Positions 7,654-57,994 of a DNA stretch of 64,000 nucleotides are shown piece by piece. This stretch comes from Rudanella paleaurantiibacter (GTDB taxonomy: Bacteria; Bacteroidota; Bacteroidia; Cytophagales; Spirosomataceae), in assembly GCF_009184635.1 (NCBI RefSeq), contig NZ_WELI01000005.1, positions 558,001 through 622,000 on the forward strand, written 5' to 3'. Within the stretch, counting starts at the first letter, position 1. Each line of letters begins with the position of its first letter. Below the pieces are notes generated by a model that worked only from the letters and a program-made list of their open reading frames with translations, made no database searches and had not been told where the DNA came from. The translations under genes were made by a program, and so were the position numbers.

Positions 7654-9186
7654 ATGGTCACCGAGCAAATTCTTATTCTGGATTTCGGTTCGCAATACAC
7701 CCAACTCATCGCCCGACGGGTTCGCGAACTGAATGTCTATTGCGAAATCCATCCTTACAACAACATTCCCGCCATCACGCCCGACGTTAAAGGAATCATC
7801 CTGTCGGGTAGCCCGTGTTCGGTCCGCGATACCGACGCCCCGATGGTCGACCTGAGCCGGTTCCGGCAGCACTTCCCAGTATTGGGTGTGTGCTATGGCG
7901 CACAATTACTGGCCCAAACGAGCGGAGGAGAGGTAAAAGCCTCCAGTATTCGAGAGTACGGTCGGGCCAAACTGGGCACTGTAGAAACGACCAACCGACT
8001 GATGCAGGGCATTGACCCCCACTCACAGGTCTGGATGTCGCACGCCGATACGATCACGCAGGTTCCCGATTCGTTTCACATCATTGCCTCAACCGAAACG
8101 GTCCGCGTGGCCGCTTTTCAGGTCTCTGGCGAGGAAACGTACGGCATTCAGTTCCACCCCGAGGTGACGCACTCTCTACAGGGTAAGCAACTACTGCACA
8201 ACTTTGTGGTAGATGTGTGCGGCTGCAAACAGGACTGGACCGCCGACTCGTTTGTGGATAGCACCGTGGCCGATCTGAAAGCCAAACTGGGCAACGACAA
8301 AGTGGTGATGGCACTCTCTGGCGGGGTCGACTCGTCGGTGGCTGCCATGTTGGTACACCGTGCCATCGGGCAAAACCTGTACTGCATTTTTGTCGACAAC
8401 GGACTGCTCCGTAAAGACGAGTTTGCGAGTGTACTGGAAAGTTACCGCACGCTGGGTCTCAACATTAAGGGAGTCGACGCCAAAGAGCAGTTCTACACCG
8501 CTCTTGCCGGTCTCACCGATCCCGAAGCCAAACGGAAAGCTATTGGGAAGACGTTTATCGACGTTTTCGACCAGGAAGCTCATTTGCTGGAAGATGTTGT
8601 ATGGCTGGGACAGGGTACCATTTACCCCGACGTAATTGAGTCGGTTTCGGTCAAAGGCCCCTCTGCCACGATCAAATCGCACCATAACGTGGGTGGCCTC
8701 CCTGATTTCATGAAGCTGAAAGTAGTAGAGCCACTCAACACCTTGTTTAAAGACGAGGTACGGGCCGTGGGCCGTTCGTTGGGCCTGCCACAGAACATTC
8801 TGGGGCGTCACCCATTCCCCGGTCCGGGTTTGGCCATTCGGATTCTGGGTGATATCACGCCCGAGAAAGTGGCCATTCTGCAGGAAGTGGACTATCTGTT
8901 TATCGACGGTCTCCGCCGGTATGGCCTATACGACCAGGTTTGGCAAGCCGGTGCCATGTTGCTCCCGATTCAGTCGGTGGGTGTCATGGGCGATGAGCGT
9001 ACGTACGAGCGCGTAGTGGCTTTACGGGCCGTAACCAGCGTGGATGGTATGACCGCCGACTGGGCACACCTCCCGTACGAGTTTCTGGCCGACATCTCGA
9101 ACGAGATCATTAACCGGGTCAAAGGCGTCAACCGGGTTGTGTACGACATTTCGAGCAAACCACCAGCGACGATTGAGTGGGAGTAA
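7654..9186 (+). CDS. guaA: GMP synthase (glutamine-hydrolysing)
   Basis: Converts XMP, ATP and glutamine to GMP. The N-terminal class I amidotransferase has the catalytic Cys in [11 protein letters not shown] and the His/Glu in FHPEVTHS. The central ATP pyrophosphatase has the P-loop [14 protein letters not shown]. The C-terminal dimerisation domain ends [14 protein letters not shown], the typical GuaA terminus. It has 511 residues from the ATG at 7654; the longer TTG frame from 7633 would begin before the predicted transcription start. It converges on miaA across a palindrome. Confidence 0.97.
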
Positions 9187-9272
9187 TACGTAGTAAGTTG
9201 TAGGCAGTGGCAGTAAGCAGTAGCTGACGCAAGAGCACTGCCTACTGCTACTGCCTACTGCCACTACTTACA
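9187..9272. repeat. CAGTAGG-heptad palindrome between guaA and miaA
   Basis: Left arm units GTAGGCAGTGGCAGTAAGCAGTAG (about 9199-9223) pair with the right arm ACTGCCTACTGCTACTGCCTACTGCCACTACTTAC (about 9237-9271). The right arm crosses the miaA stop (9248-9250), so the last seven MiaA codons (VSSGSRQ) are repeat-derived. Closely related sequence recurs at 59576-59652. Confidence 0.75.
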
Positions 9273-10153
9273 AGAGAAGCAATTTTATCGACATCACCGG
9301 GAGCAAACCACTGGTAGTTAGCCCGATGCCTGAACCAGGTCAGTTGCCGTTTGGCGTAGCGCCGGGTATTGCGTTTGAGCAGAAATACCATTTCGTCGTA
9401 GTCGTACGCCCCATCGAAATAGCCGAATACTTCCTGATAGCCCACCGTACGTAACGCCAGATGATCCCGGTACGGCAGTAAGTTTCGGGCTTCGTCGACG
9501 AGCCCAGCCGCAAGCATGGCATCCATACGGGCGTCGATGCGGGCATATAACTCCTCACGGGGTCGGTCGAGCGCACAAAGCACGATCTCGAATGGGCGCG
9601 GGGCGGCCTGCTGCCGCCGAAACGACGAAAACGGCTGCCCGGTACCCAGGCAGACCTCCAAAGCCCGCACCACCCGTTGGGTATTTTGTAAATCGGCCTC
9701 AGCGGCATAGATTGGATCAAGTTCACGCAGTTCAGCTTGCAGGGGTTCGAGCCCCTCAGCCGCAACCCGAGCCATTAGCCTATCCCGGATGGTCGCGTCT
9801 ATTGGCGGAATATCATCGAGCCCAAAGCAAAGCGCATCGATATACAAACCCGTTCCACCCGTCAGGATAACCACATCGTGTTGGATGAAGAGCCTATCGA
9901 GTAGGGCCAGGCACTCGCGTTCGTAACGGCCCGCGCTGACAACCTCCTGAATCGAATGGGAATCGATAAAGTGATGCCGCACCCCGTCCATCTCAACAGG
10001 AGTAGGTTTGGCCGTTCCAATATTCAATTCGCGATATAGCTGCCGGGAGTCGGCCGATACGACGTCGGTTTGTAATTTTTTTGCCAGACGAACGCACAAA
10101 TCTGTTTTTCCGACAGCGGTGGGTCCGGCAATGACCAGCAACGTTTTTTTCAC
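9248..10153 (-). CDS. miaA: tRNA dimethylallyltransferase
   Basis: Transfers a dimethylallyl group from DMAPP to N6 of A37 in tRNAs reading UNN codons. It starts MKKTLLVIAGPTAVGKTDL with the P-loop GPTAVGKT, followed by SADSRQLYRELNIGTAKP, HHFIDSHS, ILTGGTGLYIDAL and the C-terminal RRYAKRQLTWFRHR. Its 301 residues match the family. The last residues, VSSGSRQ, come from the intergenic palindrome rather than a conserved C-terminus. Confidence 0.96.
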   Translation of the reverse strand: MKKTLLVIAGPTAVGKTDLCVRLAKKLQTDVVSADSRQLYRELNIGTAKPTPVEMDGVRHHFIDSHSIQEVVSAGRYERECLALLDRLFIQHDVVILTGGTGLYIDALCFGLDDIPPIDATIRDRLMARVAAEGLEPLQAELRELDPIYAAEADLQNTQRVVRALEVCLGTGQPFSSFRRQQAAPRPFEIVLCALDRPREELYARIDARMDAMLAAGLVDEARNLLPYRDHLALRTVGYQEVFGYFDGAYDYDEMVFLLKRNTRRYAKRQLTWFRHRANYQWFAPGDVDKIASLVSSGSRQ

Positions 10154-32861: not shown

Positions 32862-34745
32862 TTACTGGGTAACTACCACCCGCTGCACGTTAGTTCGTTG
32901 CCCGTCCGACAGTCGGAACAGGTACAGACCCGTGGGCAAGTTACGCAACTCGGCCGATTTCTGCCCTCCTGCTGGCACAATATCCTGCACGAACCGCCCA
33001 CTCAGGTCGTACACTTGAATTCGGTTGAGCCGGGCATCGTCCCATTGAATAAGGCCCGTTGTTGGATTCGGATAAACTTGCAGAGCCGGCCGATTTTCAT
33101 CGCCGGGAGTTCCGGTCACAACAGGGGTTAGCTCACCCCCCATAACCGCCCGTAGCATTAACGCACCCTGAATACCCCGCCCCGACGGGCCAGACAGGTT
33201 TCCTTCCCATTGCGCACCGGGGGCATTGCGGTAAAAAATCTGGTTACCAAACGGGCTATTTTTATCAATTCCCATACGCACCAGGGCGTTACTCTCGCTG
33301 CTGATTTGCTGCCAGCCCACGTAAATTGTGTCTCTAACCGGCACGCCCCGATCGAAGTTAAAGGCCACGAATCCGTTGCGGCTGGGGGCGTTCTGAATGG
33401 CAAATCCCTGCGTTTTCAGCTCGCGGCCCGGCCGGCCATTACTGTTTTCGTAGACGGTGACAATAAACCGCTGATTGGTCTGATCAATACCAAACGGCAC
33501 CATTGATGCCAATACACCGGTCATCACATCAGGCTTGTTGAGCACAAACCGAACGGCCACCCGTTCGAGTCGGCCAATCTGCACAGCGTACTCGGCCGTA
33601 CCATCGTCGTAGGCGTAGTAATTGTCCAAAACCGTAACTGACGAGATCGTATCATTCCGCCGGAGGTTGACCGTCGGGATAGAGGGGTTCTGATCGTCGG
33701 TGGTCAGAAAATCGAACTTATGCCGAAGTACCACCCGTTTGGCACTTTCTGCACCCGTTACAGGTGTCAGCCGAACGGACTTCCGTTGCGACGCCAATGA
33801 TGGGACCAAATCAGGTGACGTCTGCTGAAACGTCTGTACTACCCGGCCCGTAACCAGATCAGTATTGGTAAACCGGAACGAGGTAAAGTTGAACAGGTTG
33901 AACTGATTGGTAATGTCGGTGCTAAGCGAATCGGCGGTTTCGGCGGCCGGATTCACCAGATACTGAGTCAACGGCATGGCCGTATATCGTTTCAGAAACG
34001 AGGGACCAATAGCCTGCCGGGTTGTGATATCTTTAATGAACCGGTCGGTGTTGGAACGCCCTTTGTTCAGAAACAGGTAGTCGATACTCCAGCTATCATA
34101 CGGCCCCGACTGCCGCCCGAACGAGCGGAACCGGAACTGAAATGCCCCGTGCAGAAACCGGGCATCCCGAATGGGGACAAATGCCTGCGGAAAGTTTAAG
34201 TTTGGCTGCCCTCCTACCCGAAACCAGACCGTTTCCCAAACCCGGTTCGCGTTGAGGAACTCCAGCTTGAGCGAATCGCCGGGAACGGTGGTTCCGCCCC
34301 CCAGATCGGGCAAATCGCCCAGACCCTGAACCTGCCAGAAAAAACTCAGATACACCGAGTCGCGAGGGGCCAGGCCGGCGAGGTTGATGGGTTGTGATGT
34401 GAGCGTATCCGTGTACCCCTGCGCCAGCACGTTGCTCAGCTCATAGGGTTGTCCATTGGCCCGGAGCCCATCAAACGTAGCCACGTTGACCGATGGCTGG
34501 TTAATCGGCATGGTGTTATTGATGTACACCCCACTGCCCGGCACCCACAGGCGCGGGTCGGGCTGGCCACCTACCGGAATGGTCGAAAAATCATCAAAAA
34601 ACGGAATGGCTAATGCCCCCCCCGACTGCGCTCGACCGCTCAGGGCAAGCAGCATCAGGCCTAAACAAACAAAGAAACCTCGCCCACCCCGCAAAGGGCC
34701 GGCAAGGTTTCGGAATATCGATAATACGATAGATGTCAACTGCAT
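32862..34745 (-). CDS. T9SS type A sorting-domain protein, unknown function
   Basis: A large secreted protein of about 627 residues. The signal peptide is GFFVCLGLMLLALSGRAQ after a 25-residue basic extension. The middle is beta-rich, with FDDFSTIPVGGQPDPRLW and NFTSFRFTNTDLVTGRV; no enzyme motif is visible. The C-terminus LQVYPNPTTGLIQWDDARLNRIQVYDLSGR is a classic T9SS type A domain, so it is exported through the Por machinery and anchored on the surface. The ATG at 34745 lies two bases after the PASTA gene stop, so they are translationally coupled. Confidence 0.85.
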   Translation of the reverse strand: MQLTSIVLSIFRNLAGPLRGGRGFFVCLGLMLLALSGRAQSGGALAIPFFDDFSTIPVGGQPDPRLWVPGSGVYINNTMPINQPSVNVATFDGLRANGQPYELSNVLAQGYTDTLTSQPINLAGLAPRDSVYLSFFWQVQGLGDLPDLGGGTTVPGDSLKLEFLNANRVWETVWFRVGGQPNLNFPQAFVPIRDARFLHGAFQFRFRSFGRQSGPYDSWSIDYLFLNKGRSNTDRFIKDITTRQAIGPSFLKRYTAMPLTQYLVNPAAETADSLSTDITNQFNLFNFTSFRFTNTDLVTGRVVQTFQQTSPDLVPSLASQRKSVRLTPVTGAESAKRVVLRHKFDFLTTDDQNPSIPTVNLRRNDTISSVTVLDNYYAYDDGTAEYAVQIGRLERVAVRFVLNKPDVMTGVLASMVPFGIDQTNQRFIVTVYENSNGRPGRELKTQGFAIQNAPSRNGFVAFNFDRGVPVRDTIYVGWQQISSESNALVRMGIDKNSPFGNQIFYRNAPGAQWEGNLSGPSGRGIQGALMLRAVMGGELTPVVTGTPGDENRPALQVYPNPTTGLIQWDDARLNRIQVYDLSGRFVQDIVPAGGQKSAELRNLPTGLYLFRLSDGQRTNVQRVVVTQ

Positions 34746-34747
34746 AC

Positions 34748-35530
34748 CTACGGTGTGTCCTCTTGTTCGACCGGCCCCACGACCCAAAGGTCAACCGTTT
34801 CACCAACCCGAATTCGTTCTCCCCGGTTGGCTTCGGGTCGCTGCCGCACAATGGTGCCAACTTCTTTTTCGGGATCGTCAACGGAAATAATCGTGCCAAT
34901 TTGCAGGTCAGACCCGCGAATCAGGGCCTTTGCCTCATCGAGGGGCATACCAACAACGTCGGGAACGCTAAAAATTGTATTACCCAACCCATCCCCAATA
35001 TGCAGGTCAATTTTTGACCCTTTGGCGATGGGAGTGCCGGGGGCCACTTCGCGCCCGTTGAAAAACTGTTTGAGTACCGAATTTTTGGCTACATCGGGCA
35101 CGTAGGTTTTCTGACCAACCTCAAGCCCCACCGACCGCAGCGACAGCTCGGCACTACGGAACGTCAGATCCGTCAGCTTGGGCATCGGAATTGTTGGGGC
35201 CGTTTGTTTAATGAGGGTGATGTAGATTTTGCGGCCCTCCTTCACTTTGGCCCCGGCTTTAGGATATTGACCATACACCGTGAGCGGCTCAGCACCGGCC
35301 ACAAACGTACAGTCGCTCACCTCATACCGCAACTCACGGTCATCGAGATACGACTCCAGTTCGTCGAGGCTCATCCGCGACAGATCGGGCACTGTAATGG
35401 CCTGCCCATGATTGGTAGAATAAGGCAGGTACACAAAGAAAAAGCCTAAAAACAGGACGATGAACAGGGCAGCGATAATGCCAATATGAATCAGCAGGTC
35501 GGATTTATTACTGGTGCTGATTTTAGTCAT
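34748..35530 (-). CDS. Membrane-anchored PASTA-domain protein
   Basis: A 260-residue protein with a short cytoplasmic tail, one membrane segment (residues about 13-35, IGIIAALFIVLFLGFFFVYL) and three extracytoplasmic PASTA repeats: VPDLSRMSLDELESYL, MPKLTDLTFRSAELSL and VPDVVGMPLDEAKALI. PASTA modules bind peptidoglycan stem or muropeptide fragments. There is no kinase domain, which is the normal layout in Bacteroidota. It is coupled to the T9SS protein and lies downstream of riboflavin synthase. Confidence 0.9.
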   Translation of the reverse strand: MTKISTSNKSDLLIHIGIIAALFIVLFLGFFFVYLPYSTNHGQAITVPDLSRMSLDELESYLDDRELRYEVSDCTFVAGAEPLTVYGQYPKAGAKVKEGRKIYITLIKQTAPTIPMPKLTDLTFRSAELSLRSVGLEVGQKTYVPDVAKNSVLKQFFNGREVAPGTPIAKGSKIDLHIGDGLGNTIFSVPDVVGMPLDEAKALIRGSDLQIGTIISVDDPEKEVGTIVRQRPEANRGERIRVGETVDLWVVGPVEQEDTP

Positions 35531-40308: not shown

Positions 40309-42921
40309 CTACTGCCCGGTTCCTGCCTGCACACAACTTGCGGTGTAAACCGAGGTAGCCGTGGGCACTACGTCGATAAACGATACCCCACGAGCACCCG
40401 TACTCCAGACCACCTCCTCGCCCGTTGGGCAGGCCGAGGCCGTTAATCGTACACTTTGGCCGGGGCAAATGGTCATCGTACTGGCGGTTATACGAATTGG
40501 AGCCAGCACCTGAAACTGGACAACAGGGCTATACACGTTTGCGCCGTACCGAATCCGAAGCGAATAGTTGGTCGACGCACTGAGCGAGCTGGGTATCGTG
40601 AATACAAGTTGTGTTGCATGGCTGCTCACAGCAGACACCGAAACTGGCGTTACGAAGCCTTCACCCGTCGGTACAATCTCGACCGTGTAACTACCCGCCG
40701 GGTCGAAAGCACATCCCCCACTCACGGATGCATACGTCAGCGTGACCGATTGCCCGGCCACCACGAGCGTCGCACTCTGCCCCGGTGCTGCAGCAAATGC
40801 AGGGTCTTGTAACATCGCGAACGCAATAGCCTGTACGGGTTGGACCGATCGACCATCATGCACAAGCAGTGTCGCCGAAAGCGGCCCAACTGCCCCTGTA
40901 CTTACCGATGCGCTAAATGGAACAGCACTAAGCCCTGTTCCTGATACAACACCGCCTGTACTGGCGGTCAGCGTGTAGCTATACTGCGGGCTACTTGTGC
41001 CAATAGTTGCTGTGAACGTAGCCACTCCATTGGCACAAACGGTTCCATTCCCAATGGCTGGCCCCGTAATGGTCGGAGGGGTGGCTAATACGCTTATCAC
41101 TACCCCACCAGACACCGAACGAGCCCCACCACTCCCGGTATTTCCCTGGTCATTGACAGTGATAGACACCGAGGCAACACCAATGTAGTTCGCCGTTAGC
41201 CTGAAGGTTAAGCCATTGAGTGCGTTATTGATACTGGCCAACGTTCCGGTGAAGATCATGGCAGCATCGGCTGTTCCATCACCAGCCGAAAACGTCAATC
41301 CATTGAGGGTTGCCAGTGAGAACGTCCCCTGGCTACTGTTCATGGTCATCTGCATAGCGCCACTGCCCACATCTTCATCATCGACCCGAATCAGTTGACT
41401 ATTGCTGAATACCAGCAAGCCGTTTTCCTGCACAGTAAGGGTATTGGGCCGGGTTAGTACCGGGGCATCATTCACGGGGGTAACGGTCACAGCAACACTC
41501 GCCGAATTTGTGCAGCCATTCCCGTCTGTACCAGTAACACTATACGTCTGTGTAGTAGTCGCCAGAAACTGAGCGGAACCGCCGGCAATCGAGTTGGCAG
41601 GCACATTGGGGGAAAAGGTATAGGACAAAGCCCCACCGGCTACCAACGTCAGCGACTGGTCTTCGGCAATGGTTGCGCCCGGCAGGGCTACCAATGTCAC
41701 ATTGAGGCTACTTACTGTAACATTGACCGTACCAGACGCCGTTTCGCCCGGGATGTTTCCAACCGTCAACGAAACGGTACGAACCCCGGTGGCAGCCCCA
41801 ACATTGATTGACTGCCCGAAGGCCAACGTGTTCGAAACACCAGTCACAGATGTCCCTCCGCTAATGCTCAGGGTAAAGTTGTACGGGGCACTCAGTCCCG
41901 ATACGTTGGCGGTTACGGTAATGGCCTTGTTTGGGCACACGCCCACGGTAGGCACTTGCAAATTGACCAATGAAACGGGCGGTGCCGAGGTGTAGACCGA
42001 CCCAACGGACCCCACGGTCACAAATCGACCTCCGCCATAGGCAACGCCATACAGAGTCGGCAATCCCCCCGAACCAATACTCCGGCTTGTCCAACCGCCC
42101 GTCAGCGTAGTACTCGTGTACAGCAGCCCATCCGAGCCAACCACTACATAGGTGCCAGCCCCTTCTGTTATGTCCCAAAACTGAGCGCTGGGTACCGTCA
42201 GGGGCGTACTGAAATTGATACCATCGGCCGAAGTCTGTACAAATGCATTGAACAGACTAATTACCCGCCCAACCAGTACGAACGACTCATTGAGAATGGC
42301 ATTCGGAAAAACCAATCCTCCATTCGTTGGGAACTGCTGCCAGTTGACTGCATCGAACGATTCATACCGAAGCAGGGTCGTACCATTATCACCGTAAATA
42401 ATGTAGCGCCCACCCACGAACCCCACAACATCGAGCGATACGCCAGGGTAAGGGAAAGCCTGACGGGCCCAGATTGGCGAAGACCGATACACAAACCCTT
42501 GGTTATCGGTGGCCACAAACTGATTGTTACCAAAGGCAACTTTAAGCAATCGGGCACTGGGTGTCGTGGCAAAAGACACACTGGAGAGCGTAAAACCAGT
42601 ACCCGATGACGATTCCATGATGACCACCCCCTGACTATTTCGTCCCACGGCGACAAACCGGTTGTTACCATACGCTACCGCCAACAACTCGATAGATTGA
42701 TCGGCCAGTAGCGAAACCGTCCAGTTAACCCCATCGGTCGACCGGGCCGTAACCCCCGCACCTACCGCGACAAACACCCCATCTCCGTACACAACATCCC
42801 GAAAATTATTGGTTGTCCCCGACGACCGGGCGGTCCACGTTTGTTGCGCCCATACCGGCACCAAAAGGGCACACCATACTAACACAGACAATATACCTTT
42901 TCGTAAGGTAGAGTTCTCCAT
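40309..42921 (-). CDS. Large secreted repeat protein with BNR-like and cadherin/Ig-like domains
   Basis: An exported protein of about 870 residues from the ATG at 42921 (MENSTLRKGILSVLVWCALLV). The N-terminal 330 residues contain repeated VVYGDGVFVAVG / VAYGNNRFVAVG blocks, like BNR or beta-propeller sheets. The middle has Ig-like segments and a cadherin-like stretch, APVLTRPNTLTVQENG... The C-terminus has SYTVEIVPTGEGFVTPVSVS, YGANVYSPVVQFQV and VVWSTGARGVSFIDVVPTATS, then stops. This end is homologous to the collar-operon protein at 51521. No standard T9SS PNP motif is visible; the surface role is inferred. Confidence 0.75.
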   Translation of the reverse strand: MENSTLRKGILSVLVWCALLVPVWAQQTWTARSSGTTNNFRDVVYGDGVFVAVGAGVTARSTDGVNWTVSLLADQSIELLAVAYGNNRFVAVGRNSQGVVIMESSSGTGFTLSSVSFATTPSARLLKVAFGNNQFVATDNQGFVYRSSPIWARQAFPYPGVSLDVVGFVGGRYIIYGDNGTTLLRYESFDAVNWQQFPTNGGLVFPNAILNESFVLVGRVISLFNAFVQTSADGINFSTPLTVPSAQFWDITEGAGTYVVVGSDGLLYTSTTLTGGWTSRSIGSGGLPTLYGVAYGGGRFVTVGSVGSVYTSAPPVSLVNLQVPTVGVCPNKAITVTANVSGLSAPYNFTLSISGGTSVTGVSNTLAFGQSINVGAATGVRTVSLTVGNIPGETASGTVNVTVSSLNVTLVALPGATIAEDQSLTLVAGGALSYTFSPNVPANSIAGGSAQFLATTTQTYSVTGTDGNGCTNSASVAVTVTPVNDAPVLTRPNTLTVQENGLLVFSNSQLIRVDDEDVGSGAMQMTMNSSQGTFSLATLNGLTFSAGDGTADAAMIFTGTLASINNALNGLTFRLTANYIGVASVSITVNDQGNTGSGGARSVSGGVVISVLATPPTITGPAIGNGTVCANGVATFTATIGTSSPQYSYTLTASTGGVVSGTGLSAVPFSASVSTGAVGPLSATLLVHDGRSVQPVQAIAFAMLQDPAFAAAPGQSATLVVAGQSVTLTYASVSGGCAFDPAGSYTVEIVPTGEGFVTPVSVSAVSSHATQLVFTIPSSLSASTNYSLRIRYGANVYSPVVQFQVLAPIRITASTMTICPGQSVRLTASACPTGEEVVWSTGARGVSFIDVVPTATSVYTASCVQAGTGQ

Positions 42922-43057
42922 AAAAATCAGATTTGTGTAACTCTCGAAGTATAGTAAAATACCCAATACTGGGAGAAATTATCCTGACATACGGTTAGTT
43001 TTTCCCATCACAGACCGTTCGGGCAACTGCTTTCTTCCCACTTTCGCCCCTTCTTCC

Positions 43058-51469: not shown

Positions 51470-51501
51470 AAACGCCAGCACCCCACAGGGCACTGGCGTT
51501 T
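51470..51501 (-). terminator. Terminator of the collar operon
   Basis: Nine-bp arms AAACGCCAG (51470-51478) and CTGGCGTTT (51493-51501). On the minus strand the stem is followed by TTTTGTTTTGCG, just past the Ig-like protein stop at 51521. Confidence 0.75.
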
Positions 51502-51520: not shown

Positions 51521-54436
51521 TTATCGACCGCCCGGCGCCCCCAATAAACGCCGGTTTTCGGCTGGAGAAGCTAATCCAAGTGGTTTACCGACCGCACCTG
51601 GCTTAGCCAGCCCAGATGCCGCCGGTGTAGCAACACGTGCTGCACCTGACGGCATTACACACGAGGCTGAGATAGTAGTGGTGGCGGTCAAGCTCACAAT
51701 AATAAAGGGGGCCTGCTCACCCGTCGACCAAACGACAACGTTGGGACTTGGACATCCACTGGCTGTAAGCTGAATGGTCTGGCCAACGCAAGCGGTCGTT
51801 TGTGAAGCCGTGATCGACAAGCTACTCACCGTAAACGACGAACTAGCCGGGCTGTACACCGAGCCGTTATAAATCACCTTCAGGCGATACCCCGCCGACG
51901 ATACCAGGGCGGCAGGAATGGTAAACGTTAGGCTACTGGCGGTACTGCTGGAGGGCGTAACGGTGGTTGAGTTGACTCCAAAAACACCGTTTCCGTCCGA
52001 AACCTCCACCGTAAAGGCCGTTGGGTTTACGAAACTACACGCAGCCGGTGCGTACGTTACTACAAACGGCAAGCCCGGCCCAGTACTGGTAGAAACCAAT
52101 GTAGGGGCTGCCGCAAACGCAATGGCGGTTACACTCACACTCACCGATCCTGTAACGGAGCAGCCCGACGCATTATCGGTCACGGTATAACTGTACACTT
52201 TGCGACCATTAGCCGTCAGGGTATTCAGTGTACCAGGTATAGTTACAGAAGCCGTATTGTGGGCCGGAGAAGGCACATTTGCCGTCCATTGGGCAGCCCC
52301 ACTCCCTGTCGTTTCCACCCAATTATACGACAGTCCGTCTACCCCACCCGTGGCAGTTACCCCCACTGTAAAGGGTTGCTCCGCACAAACAAGTGCGGGC
52401 GTAACCGACGTAGCCGAGATGGCCGGCGTCAGGGTATTTTGCGTGACCGAAGTCGTTTGCAAAGTCGTACACCCATTGGGCCCTGTTACCGTTACCGAGT
52501 AGGTACCGGGACTCGAAATAACCCGGGTATTAACCGTCGACTGGGTTCCCAACACGCCCGAAGGCCCCCGGAAACTATACACCACATCGGCGGTAGTGCT
52601 CCCCGCCGTCATCGTTACGGACGGGATAGCACAAGTCAGAACGGTGCTACTCGCCAAGAGGGTAACGGTTTGAGGAGGTACCAAATCAGGAAGTACCGTA
52701 TTGGCGGCAACGCTCGTACAACCGTTGGTATTTGACGTAATCACCACCGAGTAAATTCCGGGCGTATTCACGATCCGGATATTGCCCGACCCTGCAACCA
52801 CTCCCCCGGCATTGCGGAACTGATACCCAAAGGAGCCCGTGGTGGAAGTACTGGCCGTGAGGGTAGCCGAGCCGGTACAAGATACCACACCGTCTACCGC
52901 CAATAACGGATCTGCCGGCGGGGTCTGGTCGAGCAGAACAGTGGTAGATGCCGTACTGGTACAGGTATTTGGTGCCGTAGCGGTTACCGAATACAGACCA
53001 GGCGCGGACGTTGTGAATACCCGGATGTTGTTGGCAACCCCAATGGGGCCCGTGGGGCCGGTGTATGCAAACGTGGTCGATGGCGTAGTTGTACTGGCCG
53101 TGAGAGATACGCTCAGAGCCGTACAGGTGATGGGACCACTGGGTGTGAGAGCCAAAGCCTGGGGCGGATCGTTGACGGTGAGCAAGGCCGTCAGCGATGT
53201 TACCGACGAGGGTTCGGTGGGCTCCATGGCAATGCACCGGTACCGGGTATTGTGCAGCCCCGACGCACTGAGTACCGTCAGGGTTTGTGAGGTTACCCCG
53301 CTATACACGGTCCCGTCGGTCAGGTCGGTCCAGGAAGTTCCATTGGGAGACACTTGCCATTTGTACGTTTGTGCATTCTGCGACGTGATAGCAAACTGGG
53401 TCTGCTGATACGAGCATATCGTCCGGCTTTGGGGTTGCGCCGTAATTTTCACCTGCAATACCGTGAACACACAGGCATTGGGCATGGTAAAACCAGTCGG
53501 AATCGCCGATTGAGGGCAATCGAGATTGGGGTTGGGCTGATAGATAAAGCCATCACAGCCTCCACCCGTTGGGTACGTCCAACGGAGAGCGGTTGGGTTA
53601 TTGCCGGTGGCACGGGCATAAACCGACTGCCGCAACTGTTTCGGAAAACCCAATGTAATGTTGCCTGGATTGGCACAATCGTACTTGGCAAGGTTGTACA
53701 GGAAGTTAAAGAAATAGACGTTATCGGGTGGATCGGGTACCGACAGCTCAAAGGCCGAATTACCCATTACCAACGTCGATGGCAGCGTTGAGCTGCTCGA
53801 ATTGGGAGGGGAGCTATCAAAGAGTGTACTGTTCCAGCCGCCTTCGCCCCGAATCAACACCCCCGTCAGAACGGTTGGGTTAGGTGCCCGTGGCGATGCT
53901 GCCTGGTAGGCAAAAATCTGATCGGGAGACCCATCCGAAAGATCCATATAATAGGTATCGGTACAGGGAGGCTGTGAATTAGTAGCCAGAAGGGCGGCTG
54001 TTTCAACACCGGCTGCTGTACCGAGCGAAGCCGACGGGCTGTACTTACACCGAATGGCGATTTGGGTACCGGCCGCTACGCTCACGGAGGTTGTCCATGA
54101 AATTATACCATCATTGGTACCACCCGAACCGGTTCCGTTATTGGCCGGGCTGGCTACCCGGCGGCTCTGAAAACCGCCCCCACTAACCCACCCATAATCG
54201 GTGAAATATATAACCGTACCCGCTGCCAGATCCTTCAGTGGTATAAACACAAACTGATCGTTTACACTGCTACCATTACACTTGTCGTCCGACGAGTTGT
54301 AGGCAGTAATCATGACATCGCCAACGCCCAGAACGTTGGTTGGGGCCGGAATTGTCTGGGCACGGATGCCCCTAAGCCCCGCCCATATGCAGAGCAGGCC
54401 GGTTATCAGAAGAAAGCGGTAGCGGATTGTTGTCAT
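51521..54436 (-). CDS. Giant Ig-like surface protein of the collar operon
   Basis: A 971-residue exported protein with a signal peptide (MTTIRYRFLLITGLLCIWAGL). The first 300 residues contain VLGVGDVMITAYNSSDDKCNG, AGTVIYFTDYGWV and GTQIAIRCKYS, resembling surface modules near nucleases and lamin-tail-like domains. After this come several Ig-like units with CTSTAS and NGCT patterns. The end repeats the WSTGEQ module of the protein at 40309, then a 40-residue Ala/Gly/Pro tail. It is the last gene of an operon with three collar proteins and a binding-protein fold. Its ligand is unknown. Confidence 0.78.
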   Translation of the reverse strand: MTTIRYRFLLITGLLCIWAGLRGIRAQTIPAPTNVLGVGDVMITAYNSSDDKCNGSSVNDQFVFIPLKDLAAGTVIYFTDYGWVSGGGFQSRRVASPANNGTGSGGTNDGIISWTTSVSVAAGTQIAIRCKYSPSASLGTAAGVETAALLATNSQPPCTDTYYMDLSDGSPDQIFAYQAASPRAPNPTVLTGVLIRGEGGWNSTLFDSSPPNSSSSTLPSTLVMGNSAFELSVPDPPDNVYFFNFLYNLAKYDCANPGNITLGFPKQLRQSVYARATGNNPTALRWTYPTGGGCDGFIYQPNPNLDCPQSAIPTGFTMPNACVFTVLQVKITAQPQSRTICSYQQTQFAITSQNAQTYKWQVSPNGTSWTDLTDGTVYSGVTSQTLTVLSASGLHNTRYRCIAMEPTEPSSVTSLTALLTVNDPPQALALTPSGPITCTALSVSLTASTTTPSTTFAYTGPTGPIGVANNIRVFTTSAPGLYSVTATAPNTCTSTASTTVLLDQTPPADPLLAVDGVVSCTGSATLTASTSTTGSFGYQFRNAGGVVAGSGNIRIVNTPGIYSVVITSNTNGCTSVAANTVLPDLVPPQTVTLLASSTVLTCAIPSVTMTAGSTTADVVYSFRGPSGVLGTQSTVNTRVISSPGTYSVTVTGPNGCTTLQTTSVTQNTLTPAISATSVTPALVCAEQPFTVGVTATGGVDGLSYNWVETTGSGAAQWTANVPSPAHNTASVTIPGTLNTLTANGRKVYSYTVTDNASGCSVTGSVSVSVTAIAFAAAPTLVSTSTGPGLPFVVTYAPAACSFVNPTAFTVEVSDGNGVFGVNSTTVTPSSSTASSLTFTIPAALVSSAGYRLKVIYNGSVYSPASSSFTVSSLSITASQTTACVGQTIQLTASGCPSPNVVVWSTGEQAPFIIVSLTATTTISASCVMPSGAARVATPAASGLAKPGAVGKPLGLASPAENRRLLGAPGGR

Positions 54437-54461
54437 AGTCTGAAGGAAAGGCGTGACGGTC

Positions 54462-55604
54462 TCATATGCAGAGGTAAATGTTGTTCCAGCCGGTATGCTG
54501 CCCCACAGGCGGCTCCGCCAGAAACATAGCCCGATCCTGCTGCCAGTCGGGCTCTTCGGTTAGGTTAGCGAGTTGGGTGTACTCTGCTTCGGTACCGGCC
54601 AGAGTAGCCCTGTATTGCGGCCCGAATGAGTAGCGCGTTTCGGGGTCGAACGTTACAGCCCCCCGCGGCCCGGTAAAGGTATATTGGGCAAGTGCCGACG
54701 CGTGTTCAGCACCTGGGTAGCCCGTTTGCCGGAGTAACCCGTCGTAAAATGTTAGAATCAAACCGGCCTCATAGCCCAGCAACGATAGCAGATTTGCCTG
54801 CCGCCCTCGCTGTTGCATAGCCCCTATAAACGCTGCATTCTCGGGCGTATCCAGTTGCAGTGACCAGGGCGTATGACCTTGGGCCTCCAAACCTGTGTAA
54901 GGCACATTGCGCAACATGGTTTCTTCCAGTAGCATGGGCCCCAACCAAAGCGGCAAACGCCCCGGCAGCGTTGGGTAAGCCTGCAAAAACTGACTTGCCA
55001 TATCGCCTGCATACAAGGCGACCACGGCCTGTCCCTCACCAGATTGCATGCCAGCCACCAGCGCATCAAATGTGACCTCCTGCGGCTTGTGCGAGCTCAC
55101 GAAGTACTGCACCATATGCCCGCCATTAGGTACAACTCCCTGCGATAAGGCATACCCCTGTAAGTACCCCGCATCATAAAACGAACAAGCCTGTATAACT
55201 CCTTTCTGCCCATTCTGAACGGCTTTTCGGGCGGTGAGCCGGGTACTCAGGCAAAACTGCAGCGAGTGAAATAAGACCGCCGGGTGGCGAGGTAAATCCA
55301 GAAAAAATTCACCCAGTGTTTCGAGCACAAGCAGCAACCGATTGGCCCCGGCCACCAGCGGAACGATGGTTTCAACGGTTCGCCGGTTCATCAGACTCAC
55401 GATAATATCGACACCATCCTGAAGCAAAAGCTTCTGAGTTTTATCGCGTAGTTGTTCAGTATCGAGGCCAAGCCCGATGTTCTCAATCACCAGTGTCACC
55501 TCAGCCAGCCCATTACTGGCAAACCCGGCCCGTATGCCTTCTACCACATCGAATGCCAACGACGGGTAAAGCGACGAGTGCGGTATCAAAACGCCAAGTT
55601 TCAT
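54462..55604 (-). CDS. Periplasmic-binding-protein-fold protein without a signal peptide
   Basis: A 380-residue protein starting MKLGVLIPHSSLYPSLAFDVVEGIRAGFASNG, the pattern of type I periplasmic binding proteins for branched amino acids (Peripla_BP_6). VSLMNRRTVETIVPLV and VVALYAGDMASQFLQAY fit the two lobes. There is no signal peptide or membrane segment, so by sequence it stays in the cytoplasm, and no permease or ATPase gene is nearby. The ATG at 55604 is chosen over a TTG at 55613. It lies 9 bases after the collar gene before it. Confidence 0.75.
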   Translation of the reverse strand: MKLGVLIPHSSLYPSLAFDVVEGIRAGFASNGLAEVTLVIENIGLGLDTEQLRDKTQKLLLQDGVDIIVSLMNRRTVETIVPLVAGANRLLLVLETLGEFFLDLPRHPAVLFHSLQFCLSTRLTARKAVQNGQKGVIQACSFYDAGYLQGYALSQGVVPNGGHMVQYFVSSHKPQEVTFDALVAGMQSGEGQAVVALYAGDMASQFLQAYPTLPGRLPLWLGPMLLEETMLRNVPYTGLEAQGHTPWSLQLDTPENAAFIGAMQQRGRQANLLSLLGYEAGLILTFYDGLLRQTGYPGAEHASALAQYTFTGPRGAVTFDPETRYSFGPQYRATLAGTEAEYTQLANLTEEPDWQQDRAMFLAEPPVGQHTGWNNIYLCI

Positions 55605-55613
55605 GGGCAGCAA

Positions 55614-56138
55614 TTAGTTTTGGGTTGGGTACACTCCCTGCAAGGCAATTACGAAATTGATGACGGTGTAGGGCTGCATGGTGGTAAAGGGTTGCCCCCC
55701 CCCGGCCGATCCGGTATTTGACAGGGTTGACCCAACAGCCAGATTCACATCAGCATTAGGCCCATAGCTGCCCGTAGTGGTTGCCGCCGGAAACGCACCG
55801 GTCGGATTGTTGGTTGTTCCTGGCCCGGTATTGCAGGGGGGCCTAAAGGTTAAATCATGCGTATGGGCTGGCAGATTACTGATATTGAGCGTAGCCGTAG
55901 TTGCTCCCGTCACCTGACCGAGAATAAAGTTGTCGCCCCAATGCATGGGAAGCCGACCCCGCAAGTCGGGCAACGCAAAGTTTACCCGTCCATCCCCACC
56001 GTAGGTAGTTCCCAAAAGAGAAAATAGAGCCTGATTCTGATTGATCGGCAAAATCTGACCATTACACTGTGCCCAACCTTGTGGCGCATAATTAAATGCG
56101 ACCATACTGATTGAGGCTAAAAAAGGATTATCATTCAT
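55614..56138 (-). CDS. Phage tail collar-domain protein (MdpB-like), copy 3
   Basis: A 174-residue protein. The collar domain block is APQGWAQCNGQILPINQNQALF then YGGDGRVNFALPDLRGRLPMHWG, followed by NLPAHTHDL and an Ala/Gly/Thr/Asn-rich middle, ending TMQPYTVINFVIALQGVYPT. It has no signal peptide. It is the third of three tandem paralogues and is followed without space by the binding-protein gene. In phages the collar domain forms the tail fibre or short tail tip; its role here is unknown. Confidence 0.88.
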   Translation of the reverse strand: MNDNPFLASISMVAFNYAPQGWAQCNGQILPINQNQALFSLLGTTYGGDGRVNFALPDLRGRLPMHWGDNFILGQVTGATTATLNISNLPAHTHDLTFRPPCNTGPGTTNNPTGAFPAATTTGSYGPNADVNLAVGSTLSNTGSAGGGQPFTTMQPYTVINFVIALQGVYPTQN

Positions 56139-56150
56139 AACAGGTTCCGG

Positions 56151-56702
56151 TTAACCTCTGGGAGGGAAAACGCCTTGCAGAGCGATGCAGAACGTTAACG
56201 TCAGCGAGGGTTGCATGATTGAAAAAGGGGCATTGATTCCACCGGCATACCCTACCTGAAGCGTGTAGGGGGCCATGCTACCATTTGACGTGGCCGCATA
56301 CCGATTATCAGTGCCTGTTTGGGCAGGGGCCCGCCCGGCTGGCGATGCGCTATTGCCTAAATCGGTTGTTGCCAACTGTGTCAACGACACCGCATCGGCA
56401 GCTGAATGACCATGGGGCGTGATCTGAGCTGGGATAAGCGTTTCGACTTGAGCCCCACCTTCTTGTCCTATAAAGAACTGAGAAAGCCCGGGGCCTTGCC
56501 CCTGATGTATAGGTACCCTGCCCTGCAGGTCGGGTAGCGCAAACGTCGACTTACCATCGCCCCCATAGAAAGTACCCAATAGAGAGAACAGGGCCGTATT
56601 CTGAGAAATAGGTAAAATCTGGCCATTACAAAGGGCCCATCCTGTAGGGGCAAAATTACTGGCGGTAATACCAATCTCAGCAACGAACGAAGTGATATCC
56701 AT
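56151..56702 (-). CDS. Phage tail collar-domain protein (MdpB-like), copy 2
   Basis: A 183-residue paralogue. Its shared framework is APTGWALCNGQILPISQNTALFSLLG, YGGDGKSTFALPDLQGRVPIHQG, TPHGHSAA, and the C-terminal IMQPSLTLTFCIALQGVFPP. The central loop is longer and different from the other copies, where receptor specificity would lie if it binds one. Twelve bases separate it from the third copy. Confidence 0.88.
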   Translation of the reverse strand: MDITSFVAEIGITASNFAPTGWALCNGQILPISQNTALFSLLGTFYGGDGKSTFALPDLQGRVPIHQGQGPGLSQFFIGQEGGAQVETLIPAQITPHGHSAADAVSLTQLATTDLGNSASPAGRAPAQTGTDNRYAATSNGSMAPYTLQVGYAGGINAPFSIMQPSLTLTFCIALQGVFPPRG

Positions 56703-56712
56703 AAGGAGAAAG

Positions 56713-57261
56713 TTAGGATTGCTGGGGATACTGTCCGTAAAGCGAAATTATAAAACTAACCGTCAGGTAGGGTTGCATAATATTGACCGGGAGGTTTCCT
56801 CCATCCTGGTTAGGACCGGTCTGAATTGCCGTATTGTTCCCGATGTTTGCCATATTGGCTGTATTGGCCGTAGGGCTTCGGTAGAACGCTTTTCGACCTG
56901 AACCAGCGTAGTAATTACCCTGCGGACTCCCCGAGATACCAGCACTACTTGATGCAATAGGCTGATACGTGTACGGATGGGTATGGGGCGGAATATTATT
57001 CAGGCTAAGCACAACCTCTGTCCGCCCACCTTGCTCCCCTATTGTATAGGTTACTCCGTTGCGGGTACCCATATGCATAGGAACCCGCCCTCGTAAATCG
57101 GGCAAAGCAAAAGTCTCCTGTCCATCCCCCCCGTAGGTAGTACCAATCAGTATAAAGAGTGCGTCGTTCTCTGCAATCGGTATCAGTTGTCCATCGCAGA
57201 AGGCCCAGCCTACGGGTGGAAATGAACCGGCAAACAGACGAATTTCACCGATATATGGCAT
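56713..57261 (-). CDS. Phage tail collar-domain protein (MdpB-like), copy 1
   Basis: A 182-residue paralogue, first of the triplet. It starts MPYIGEIRLFAGSFPPVGWAFCDGQLIPIAENDALF and continues YGGDGQETFALPDLRGRVPMHMG, IPPHTHPYTYQ and MQPYLTVSFIISLYGQYP. The repeated spacing of conserved Trp/Gly/Asp/Pro/His residues in all three copies shows they arose by duplication and kept the fold. Ten bases separate it from the second copy. Confidence 0.88.
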   Translation of the reverse strand: MPYIGEIRLFAGSFPPVGWAFCDGQLIPIAENDALFILIGTTYGGDGQETFALPDLRGRVPMHMGTRNGVTYTIGEQGGRTEVVLSLNNIPPHTHPYTYQPIASSSAGISGSPQGNYYAGSGRKAFYRSPTANTANMANIGNNTAIQTGPNQDGGNLPVNIMQPYLTVSFIISLYGQYPQQS

Positions 57262-57348
57262 ACGAAAAAATAAGTTTGTAGTGGTTAGCGAACGAATGTG
57301 TAGGCGTCTGAGGGCGTGGGCTCAGTGTAAAAAAAGGTCAATAAGCCG

Positions 57349-57900
57349 TTAAACGAGTGAATTCGGTAGCACTGGATATCCCGGTGTTTCGGTATCGGTG
57401 CCCAACAATGATTTACCCCGGAAATCGACGCAGCTTAATACCTTGAAATGATCGGTCAGGGTAAGTACTCCTTTATCGCCGAAGATTTGAAGCTGGTGCG
57501 AAGTATTGCCCGGTACAGAGCCGTGTAACGCCTGACCTCGCCAATGGACCAACGTACCAGCCAGTTGAAACGAAACGGCCTGCGAACCCATCACTGGTTC
57601 GGGCATGGCTGGTAATGACGGCACCGGCTGACCGAGCAACGTGCTTACAGCCTGCAAGCCCTGCTGCAGACGATTCTGTAAATAAGCGGTTGAGTCTTGT
57701 TCGGGGCAGAACGGGTAGAGCTCCGTTACCCAGATTTGTTGCGGCTGCCCAATTCCCTGGGCTGTCAGAAGCGACTTAGCGAACAAATGACTGTTTACTG
57801 ACGCAGGCACGGTAGCCCCTATCGAATCGACGATAGGTAGCATAGAAGCTGCCGACAGCCCTACTGAGAGCTGTTTTACAAATTGCCGACGATTAGGCAT
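57349..57900 (-). CDS. Tat-signal protein, unknown; possible Gfo/Idh/MocA remnant
   Basis: A 183-residue protein with a twin-arginine signal NRRQFVKQLSVGLSAASM (RRxFxK), so it would be exported folded. The rest has no confident family. QLQIFGDKGVLTLTDHFKVL resembles the C-terminal domain of Gfo/Idh/MocA oxidoreductases, but the NAD-binding domain is absent. It is first in the collar operon, directly after the operon promoter and 87 bases before the first collar gene. It could be a degraded or repurposed oxidoreductase. Confidence 0.55.
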   Translation of the reverse strand: MPNRRQFVKQLSVGLSAASMLPIVDSIGATVPASVNSHLFAKSLLTAQGIGQPQQIWVTELYPFCPEQDSTAYLQNRLQQGLQAVSTLLGQPVPSLPAMPEPVMGSQAVSFQLAGTLVHWRGQALHGSVPGNTSHQLQIFGDKGVLTLTDHFKVLSCVDFRGKSLLGTDTETPGYPVLPNSLV

Positions 57901-57964: not shown

Positions 57965-57994
57965 CAAATCTATCATACACGATATAATATCAAA
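57965..57994 (-). promoter_or_regulatory. Promoter of the collar operon
   Basis: On the minus strand TTTG (57994-57991), an 18-base spacer, then exact TAGATTTG (57972-57965). The first ATG (57900) is 64 bases on. This is the best -33/-7 pair in the window. Confidence 0.72.

Follow-up and report, generated by a model that had tools for sequence, protein, structure and literature searches.

Rudanella paleaurantiibacter carries, on the minus strand of contig NZ_WELI01000005.1, an operon in which three genes for phage tail-collar proteins are joined to genes for a periplasmic-binding-protein fold (PBP), a protein with a twin-arginine translocation (Tat) signal and a giant exported protein. The stretch of DNA analysed, which we call the window, is 64,000 nucleotides long, and the operon occupies 51521-57900(-). 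The six genes almost certainly form a conserved functional unit. Most of its parts belong to known families and a collar heterotrimer is already known from a virophage, whereas the bacterial combination of collars with a PBP, a Tat partner and a giant protein appears to be new. We tentatively read the unit as a domesticated phage-tail-tip recognition module, which would be exported folded on its Tat partner and paired with the giant surface protein. All six co-directional open reading frames (ORFs) named in a preliminary description of this DNA were found:

57349..57900, minus strand: leading Tat-signal protein, 183 amino acids (MPNRRQFVKQL...), with an RR motif and a putative truncated Gfo/Idh/MocA-type C-terminal domain
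56713..57261, minus strand: collar C1, class alpha, 182 amino acids; Pfam Collar 2.1e-28; class hidden Markov model (HMM) margin +44 bits
56151..56702, minus strand: collar C2, class beta, 183 amino acids; Pfam Collar 2.9e-26; class HMM margin +41 bits
55614..56138, minus strand: collar C3, class gamma, 174 amino acids; Pfam Collar 4.6e-28; class HMM margin +40 bits
54462..55604, minus strand: leaderless PBP with the type I fold, 380 amino acids from the ATG; Peripla_BP_6 2.1e-19
51521..54436, minus strand: exported repeat protein of 971 amino acids; type IX secretion system (T9SS) C-terminal domain not found

This is also the order of transcription, with intergenic gaps of 87, 10, 12, 0 (9 when counted from the PBP ATG) and 25 bases. 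The ORF list begins the PBP at a TTG at 55613 (54462-55613), and the ATG at 55604 is the likelier start. None of the six proteins matched NCBIfam over the cut-off.

Conserved co-occurrence of these genes had been set beforehand as the test of a unit. When 84,980 species genomes were scanned with the PBP alignment, at least 28 loci were returned, 27 of them labelled Bacteroidota; this is a lower bound because the scan uses short patterns. The genera include Spirosoma, Fibrella, Flavobacterium, Niastella, Pseudobacter, Chitinophaga and Taibaiella, and further Algibacter, Lutibacter, Aureisphaera, Maribellus and Emticicia. In 28/28 loci the gene immediately upstream of the PBP encodes a collar, at a distance of at most 119 bases, and 30 of 31 distinct PBP loci, counting the window and its relatives, are collar loci. 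Of 62 collar loci, 53 encode a large exported protein no more than five genes downstream; the same holds for 27 of 30 PBP loci and for 31 of 167 background genes. Collars, PBP and giant protein thus stand together far above background, which bears out the preliminary description. The complete order of Tat gene, three collars, PBP and giant is kept in the window and in the loci L013, L033, L035 and L036 (genus codes g1, g10 and g33), and L038 has the same order with an unrelated Tat protein. The 28th locus, L069, is labelled as a Limnohabitans metagenome-assembled genome (MAG), a betaproteobacterial bin; because its collar groups with Flavobacterium, we suspect that the contig is misbinned.

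The simple length rule used to select ORFs missed some Tat ORFs and some collars, the latter recovered in the class-HMM run described below. L034 and L043, with no collar ORF by this rule, stand outside the 62 loci, and the L043 collar was among those recovered. Five loci (L053, L054, L055, L072 and L080) repeat L033, L035, L036, L037 and L038; they were removed from the Tat, class, downstream-giant, giant-domain and motif counts and from the nonsynonymous-to-synonymous ratios (dN/dS), and kept among the 28 loci and in the 148-row listing.

Several observations weigh against so tight a unit. L034:7744-8874(+) is a lone PBP with no collar beside it, the sole such case of 31. The PBP-type operon is rare, whereas collar genes as such are common: PBP relatives occur in 8/222 genomes of the family, probably Spirosomataceae, seven of the eight at a collar locus with L034 as the exception, and the Collar domain occurs in 108/222. 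Five of the 53 downstream exported proteins are contig-cut ORFs of less than 500 amino acids, accepted under a rule not applied to the background. Among the nine misses, L020 and L031 have the giant gene adjacent on the other strand, L022, L026, L036, L048 and L069 have an ORF of more than 500 amino acids that the crude signal filter rejected, and L032 and L066 show no clear case.

The three collars differ in class. PF07484 bit scores were 98.5, 91.6 and 97.4 for C1, C2 and C3, the cut-off being 24. A tree of 132 collars, from which L050 was omitted, places C1, C2 and C3 in three groups, each shared with type-B triplets, with SH-like approximate likelihood-ratio (SH-aLRT) supports of 87, 86 and 97. 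We trained alpha, beta and gamma HMMs on 11 type-B triplets only and ran them on all loci. Exactly one collar of each class was found in 10 of the 17 held-out three-collar loci (random expectation 6 in 27), namely the window, L013, L017, L018, L019, L029, L033, L035, L036 and L073, several of which are closely related and two of which have small margins (5 and 12 bits). The class order among them is alpha-beta-gamma, gamma-alpha-beta or gamma-beta-alpha. By these comparisons the window collars belong to three old, conserved and distinct classes, and the keeping of one of each class while the order shuffles matches the prediction of an obligate hetero-oligomer.

A precedent exists in virophage DSLV2. 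The available text of that report (PMC12724248) describes three consecutive collar-domain proteins that co-purify as a 1:1:1 heterotrimer and bind Synechococcus cells. The virophage tripartite tail, as described there, resembles the window in its three consecutive PF07484 genes of different classes and differs in sitting on a virus capsid, in having no PBP, Tat partner or giant protein, and in not being encoded by bacterial chromosomal genes; its complex was demonstrated by co-purification, whereas the window triplet is known from sequence. Because of this precedent we judge a hetero-oligomer likelier, and by analogy consider one likely in the lineage of the window. The preliminary description had proposed that the three collars form a heterotrimer. 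The proposal has support for the lineage of the window, from the three conserved distinct classes and the virophage, but not for all loci. Three is not a fixed number, as PBP loci hold 1, 2 or 3 collars, and the Flavobacterium loci, also with 1-3, contain many recent duplicates in the tree. Against it stand, further, the 7/17 held-out three-collar loci without one of each class (L038, L062, L065, L067, L068, L070 and L071, from Flavobacteriia, Chitinophagaceae and an Emticicia MAG) and the first collar of L033, which the tree does not place with class alpha. We rejected an obligatory heterotrimer everywhere on account of the variable collar number and these seven loci.

Each collar also carries a conserved HxH motif:

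56977..56985, minus strand: HxH of C1 (His93 and His95), proposed equivalent of the Zn site in T4 gp12
56406..56414, minus strand: HxH of C2 (His97 and His99)
55857..55865, minus strand: HxH of C3 (His92 and His94)

Both histidines are invariant across 26 aligned rows. The motif is present in 133 of 135 distinct collars (13 repeated rows excluded) and lies 45 or 50 residues behind GGxG in 123 of the 133. The two collars that lack it are the proteins L050:7929-8609(-) and 8740-9495(-), which bear signals for the general secretory (Sec) pathway and have the C-terminal framework (QPY...GIFPSR) ahead of the collar domain, in the manner of a circular permutation. In T4 gp12, according to the accessible part of PMC3004832, His445 and His447 of each chain hold one axial Zn. 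The window collars may bind metal through HxH in a gp12-like manner, where HxH is equated with His445/His447 by motif and rough position, not by alignment. The collar profile aligns to T4 gp12 over the collar only, ending before HxH, which speaks against the equation; it aligns to the 8kec long tail fibre through HxH, and the C-terminal match to 8kec alone is not significant (E 17). T4 gp12 and similar fibre tips (1OCY, 8KEC) share the collar domain with the window proteins. They differ in having a fibre shaft and accompanying phage genes, whereas the window collars are stand-alone proteins of about 180 amino acids. The collars match PHROG tail families, and C1 resembles phage minor tail proteins along its full length, the best match being 35.7% identical over 93% of it.

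The PBP deviates from known proteins of its fold. The Peripla_BP_6 match begins at residue 3, and there is no signal peptide in the window copy or in nearly all relatives, in agreement with the preliminary assignment of a type I binding-protein fold without a signal peptide. The AlphaFold2 (AF2) model has a predicted local distance difference test score (pLDDT) of 90.7, and its closest solved folds are Rhodopseudomonas aromatic-acid solute-binding proteins with AmiC (1qnl, 1pea) slightly further down. No permease gene lies beside the PBP in the window, where its neighbours are a collar and the surface protein. We therefore rejected an ordinary ABC-transport binding protein, as both signal peptide and permease are missing. 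No AmiR-type regulator was found in the window operon or among the named neighbour genes of PBP loci, few unnamed neighbours having been scanned. Unlike type I ABC solute-binding proteins and AmiC, with which it shares the fold, the window PBP also has a conserved C-terminal tail:

54465..54494, minus strand: PBP tail W-x-N-x-Y-x-C, conserved; mean pLDDT 52 over residues 371-380

In a 29-row alignment, from which L059 and L065 were omitted although both carry the tail motif, seven positions are invariant, including W373 and N375, and Y377 and C379 are conserved at 90% or more. The motif W-x-N-x-[YF]-x-C is present in 30 of 32 PBPs; the counterexamples are two PBPs of Maribellus L079, which lack the tail Cys. 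Conservation of this kind in a stretch of low predicted order suggests that the tail serves in docking or processing.

A second link between the PBP and its neighbours is found in the giant protein:

53354..54361, minus strand: residues 26-361 of the giant, its N-terminal domain; within the fetched loci detected in PBP loci only

An HMM of this domain detected 9 proteins in its first round and 16 once iterated, every one of them at a PBP locus (16/31). None was found in the 33 fetched loci without a PBP, the search being confined to fetched loci. In L038 the best match is internal rather than N-terminal, and the Flavobacterium giants read differently at the N-terminus. The preliminary description had called the giant Ig-like. 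In the window protein this appears only below the Pfam threshold, whereas the relative in L035 is clear (Ig_7, 6e-21). SprA is encoded in the window genome, which measures 6.7 Mb. Two results weigh against a type IX route to the surface: Pfam finds no T9SS domain in the window giant, whose end is the same in the L013 copy, and among the giants of four relatives only that of L022, which is not a PBP locus, exceeds the T9SS cut-off, L035 and L041 lying below. The likeness to T9SS-secreted Bacteroidota adhesins is thus the Por_Secre_tail match of L022; the window copy differs from them in lacking the sorting domain, and the giants are set apart by their pairing with collar genes. By reading, the giants of this genus (window 51521-51700(-), L013 and L015) have no T9SS domain and end in a short Ala/Pro/Arg-rich C-terminal tail. 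Elsewhere in the window, 40309-42966(-) encodes an 885-amino-acid protein with a cadherin-like domain, which resembles the giant and is not linked to collars, and 32862-34787(-) encodes a 641-amino-acid protein whose T9SS sorting domain exceeds the cut-off.

The leading protein has no Pfam match, and at 183 amino acids including the signal no N-terminal Rossmann NAD(P) domain was found in it. Its AF2 model (pLDDT 73, the signal region poor) matched 13 chains in the PDB at E<=1e-3 with TM scores of 0.39-0.51, all oxidoreductases or a dehydrogenase, including glucose-fructose oxidoreductase (GFOR, 1rye); most of the 13 entries belong, we assume, to the Gfo/Idh/MocA family. R4, R5 and F7 are invariant in the 10 rows of the alignment and the hydrophobic stretch passes the filter. 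As a query, the protein gave 7 matches in 6 genomes, all beside collar genes. Its profile gave 10 strong matches in the 222 genomes, 10/10 at collar loci, and 13 weaker ones elsewhere. Four of the weak matches were inspected: three read as full-length Tat-signal Gfo/Idh/MocA proteins (about 450 amino acids) and one as a sensor-kinase-like chance match. Weak matches fall near the C-terminal half of the Tat-signal ORFs of about 450 amino acids, and it is from this placement that we identify the C-terminal part as the source. Based on the model, we conclude that the leading gene would encode a truncated Gfo/Idh/MocA-type C-terminal domain without the cofactor domain; compared with Tat-signal Gfo/Idh/MocA oxidoreductases, it keeps the C-terminal fold and the Tat signal and misses the NAD(P) domain. 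The protein is probably not an enzyme.

Tat signals are enriched more widely at collar loci. Of 311 ORFs that run with a collar cluster and lie at most four genes from it, 31 have a Tat signal by the filter, as against 6 of 584 other ORFs (Fisher 5e-10, a value that overstates independence because the loci share descent). When 35 Tat ORFs were cut behind the signal they fell into 8 sequence groups (the 369-amino-acid Tat-signal ORF of L050 was not among the 35). The window type has 10 members and a second type 15, and the smaller groups are mostly without a Pfam match; two members of the second type were scanned, one matching Dioxygenase_C at 1e-8 and the other not. At the level of sequence, the Tat signal is kept while what is attached to it changes. 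The pattern is incomplete, which counts against a general Tat partner. A Tat-signal ORF was found in only 36 of 62 collar loci (30 by the filter and 6 by eye, the latter in L031, L035, L037, L040, L075 and L076 under a looser, unblinded rule that was not given to the background) and in 20 of 31 PBP loci. Among the 11 PBP loci that lack one, L058, L059 and L067 end at a contig edge, L034 has no collar, and L068, L070, L071 and L073 are of the Chitinophagaceae type, none of these four showing a Tat-signal ORF.

Components that are leaderless in the window bear signals of their own in some relatives. Beside a collar in Maribellus L079 the PBP has a Tat-like signal (Pfam TAT_signal below the cut-off), and the collars of L050 and L052 have Sec-like signals. 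DUF6916 proteins with a Tat-like signal stand at the collar triplets L018:10340-10717(+) and L029:5877-6278(-), and are leaderless in other triplets. Components with their own signals indicate a place outside the cytoplasm, which we regard as quite likely the working place of the proteins. That the leaderless partners hitchhike on the Tat protein is plausible, if a little short of probable. TatC is encoded in the window genome. Ternary hitchhiking is known from the PaoABC heterotrimer, in which, according to the available text (PMC4273604), one Tat signal carries leaderless partners as we propose for the window, with unrelated proteins.

Two putative control elements stand at the ends of the operon:

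57965..57994, minus strand: promoter-like element TTTG-N18-TAGATTTG, the lone exact pattern match in 64 kb
51470..51501, minus strand: terminator-like hairpin of 14 pairs followed by a T-rich tail, closing the transcription unit

The promoter pattern, TTTG-N16-21-TANNTTTG, which we take to be the Bacteroidota-type consensus, was searched across the whole window. The clean promoter reported earlier is its sole match, but 1.16 matches are expected by chance; a scan for sigma-70-type promoters gave no excess over shuffles (6 vs 6.3). The terminator reported at the end of the operon is there as a hairpin, in a region with no overall excess of terminator-like sites (5 observed vs 7.9). By Pfam scan the flanks are a ROK gene and a DUF2267 gene. 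Purifying selection acts on all six genes: against the same-genus copy L013, dN/dS was 0.065-0.168 at dS of 0.9-2.2, values that are rough because dS is near saturation, and the two flanking genes gave 0.019 and 0.040.

Other gene combinations recur around collars. Six collar genes, at three sites, are present in the window genome, and the other two sites (L014 and L015) also run into a giant exported protein. In another type of locus (L014 and L039-L042), a Tat protein and a leucine-rich-repeat protein stand with 1-2 collars and a giant protein. An Fmt-like formyltransferase gene directly follows the PBP in 16 of 31 PBP loci (one member scanned, Formyl_trans_N 1e-20). Found among L056-L071, it is a second amine-acylating enzyme besides the GNAT of the type-B triplets, many of which in this family have GNAT and DUF6916 genes after the collars. 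Modification-type genes recur beside the collars of L017, L033, L037, L038, L039 and L041 (clusters c5, c6, c9, c10, c12 and c20); the recurring neighbours are Asp/Asn hydroxylase, weak sulfotransferase, APS kinase, 2-oxoglutarate (2OG) oxygenase and, by reading, PhyH-like genes. A short HEAGH-motif protein without a Pfam match also recurs beside collar loci.

For export and function we infer the following course. Collars alpha, beta and gamma would fold together in the cytoplasm as an intertwined trimer that resembles the T4 gp12 head, each chain giving its HxH to one axial metal ion; this trimer is proposed because of homology, the HxH motif and the virophage precedent. The collars and the leaderless PBP would then cross the inner membrane bound to a Tat-signal partner, in the window the truncated Gfo/Idh/MocA-type protein. 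Hitchhiking is proposed because the collars have no signal peptide and would fold before export. The giant would take the Sec route on its own, and in relatives the type IX system would probably sort it; the PBP would pair with the N-terminal domain of the giant, its W-x-N-x-Y-x-C tail being the likely docking peptide. On the giant, the collar trimer would end as a recognition tip for a glycan or a cell surface, and thus serve as adhesin or receptor, a role for which we consider the case evenly balanced. The earlier idea that the collar complex is sensed by the surface protein was not supported. A new class of bacterial surface organelle, in which phage-tip hetero-oligomers are exported folded by Tat on interchangeable partners together with the leaderless PBP and docked on a dedicated giant by the PBP tail, is conceivable and rather doubtful.

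Other explanations account for parts of the evidence. The PBP, lacking a signal peptide almost throughout, may instead stay inside, bind a small ligand and control or assist collar folding, with the Tat gene as an unrelated neighbour. AmiC, among its closest folds, remains cytosolic. Such a cytosolic sensor or chaperone is nonetheless unlikely, as no AmiR-like regulator was seen among the named neighbours (most of the unnamed ones lying outside the scan), the PBP homologue of L079 has a Tat-like signal at a collar locus, and the PBP co-occurs with a domain of an exported protein. The formyltransferase behind the PBP, the GNAT and DUF6916 genes after many type-B triplets and the hydroxylase, APS kinase, weak sulfotransferase and 2OG-oxygenase matches at some loci would fit collars and PBP that present or build a substrate, a coat, which neighbour enzymes formylate, acetylate, hydroxylate or sulfate. 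We consider this scaffold slightly less likely again, since the window operon contains none of these enzyme genes and several are divergently transcribed where they occur.

Collar genes are commonly taken for phage debris, and two accounts keep closer to a phage. Released phage-like tips may occupy or mask surface receptors and so block adsorption, as the likeness of C1 to minor tail proteins and the PHROG matches of the collars would allow. This decoy is improbable, because it would have no need of so close an association with the PBP and with a giant exported protein, and because PADLOC gave no match for eight proteins, on which ground a defence system was rejected. As parts of tail fibres, the collar domains could also be the remnant of a prophage, tailocin or extracellular injection system, which we hold to be very improbable. 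No phage gene was found in the 12 other window ORFs scanned (two flanking and ten others), and these together with the operon contain, collars apart, no tail tube, sheath, baseplate, capsid or lysis genes, as the preliminary description had it. A scan of viral contigs confirmed no PBP relative, all six genes are under purifying selection, and the same arrangement is found across many genera. A prophage or tailocin origin was rejected on the missing phage genes, the missing viral relative and the selection. The recognition module is our preferred reading, at the tentative strength given above.

Stand-alone bacterial collars are, as we understand it, those classed as COG4675, 'microcystin-dependent protein'. 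The accessible text of PMC5579227 places COG4675 proteins in soil metaproteomes, with Pedobacter among the organisms, gives no role, and, unlike the window, brings in no PBP, Tat partner or giant protein. Collar paralogues of Solibacter show signs of positive selection, according to the part of PMC3174227 available. In the literature searched, largely open-access, we found no account of bacterial collar genes with a PBP, a Tat partner or a giant surface protein. Four points go beyond the preliminary description: the pattern of Tat partners, the tail of the PBP, the domain of the giant that goes with the PBP, and the truncated Gfo/Idh/MocA-type nature of the leading gene.

If the proposed recognition module is correct, the collar genes, present in about half of the family genomes, would be working surface parts of Bacteroidota, and for many 'tail fibre' annotations there would be a role open to testing, with the HxH site, the PBP tail and the giant's N-terminal domain as direct handles. 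A bacterial equivalent of the virophage heterotrimer would then be known, and pre-folded fibre tips would join the known kinds of cargo exported by Tat.

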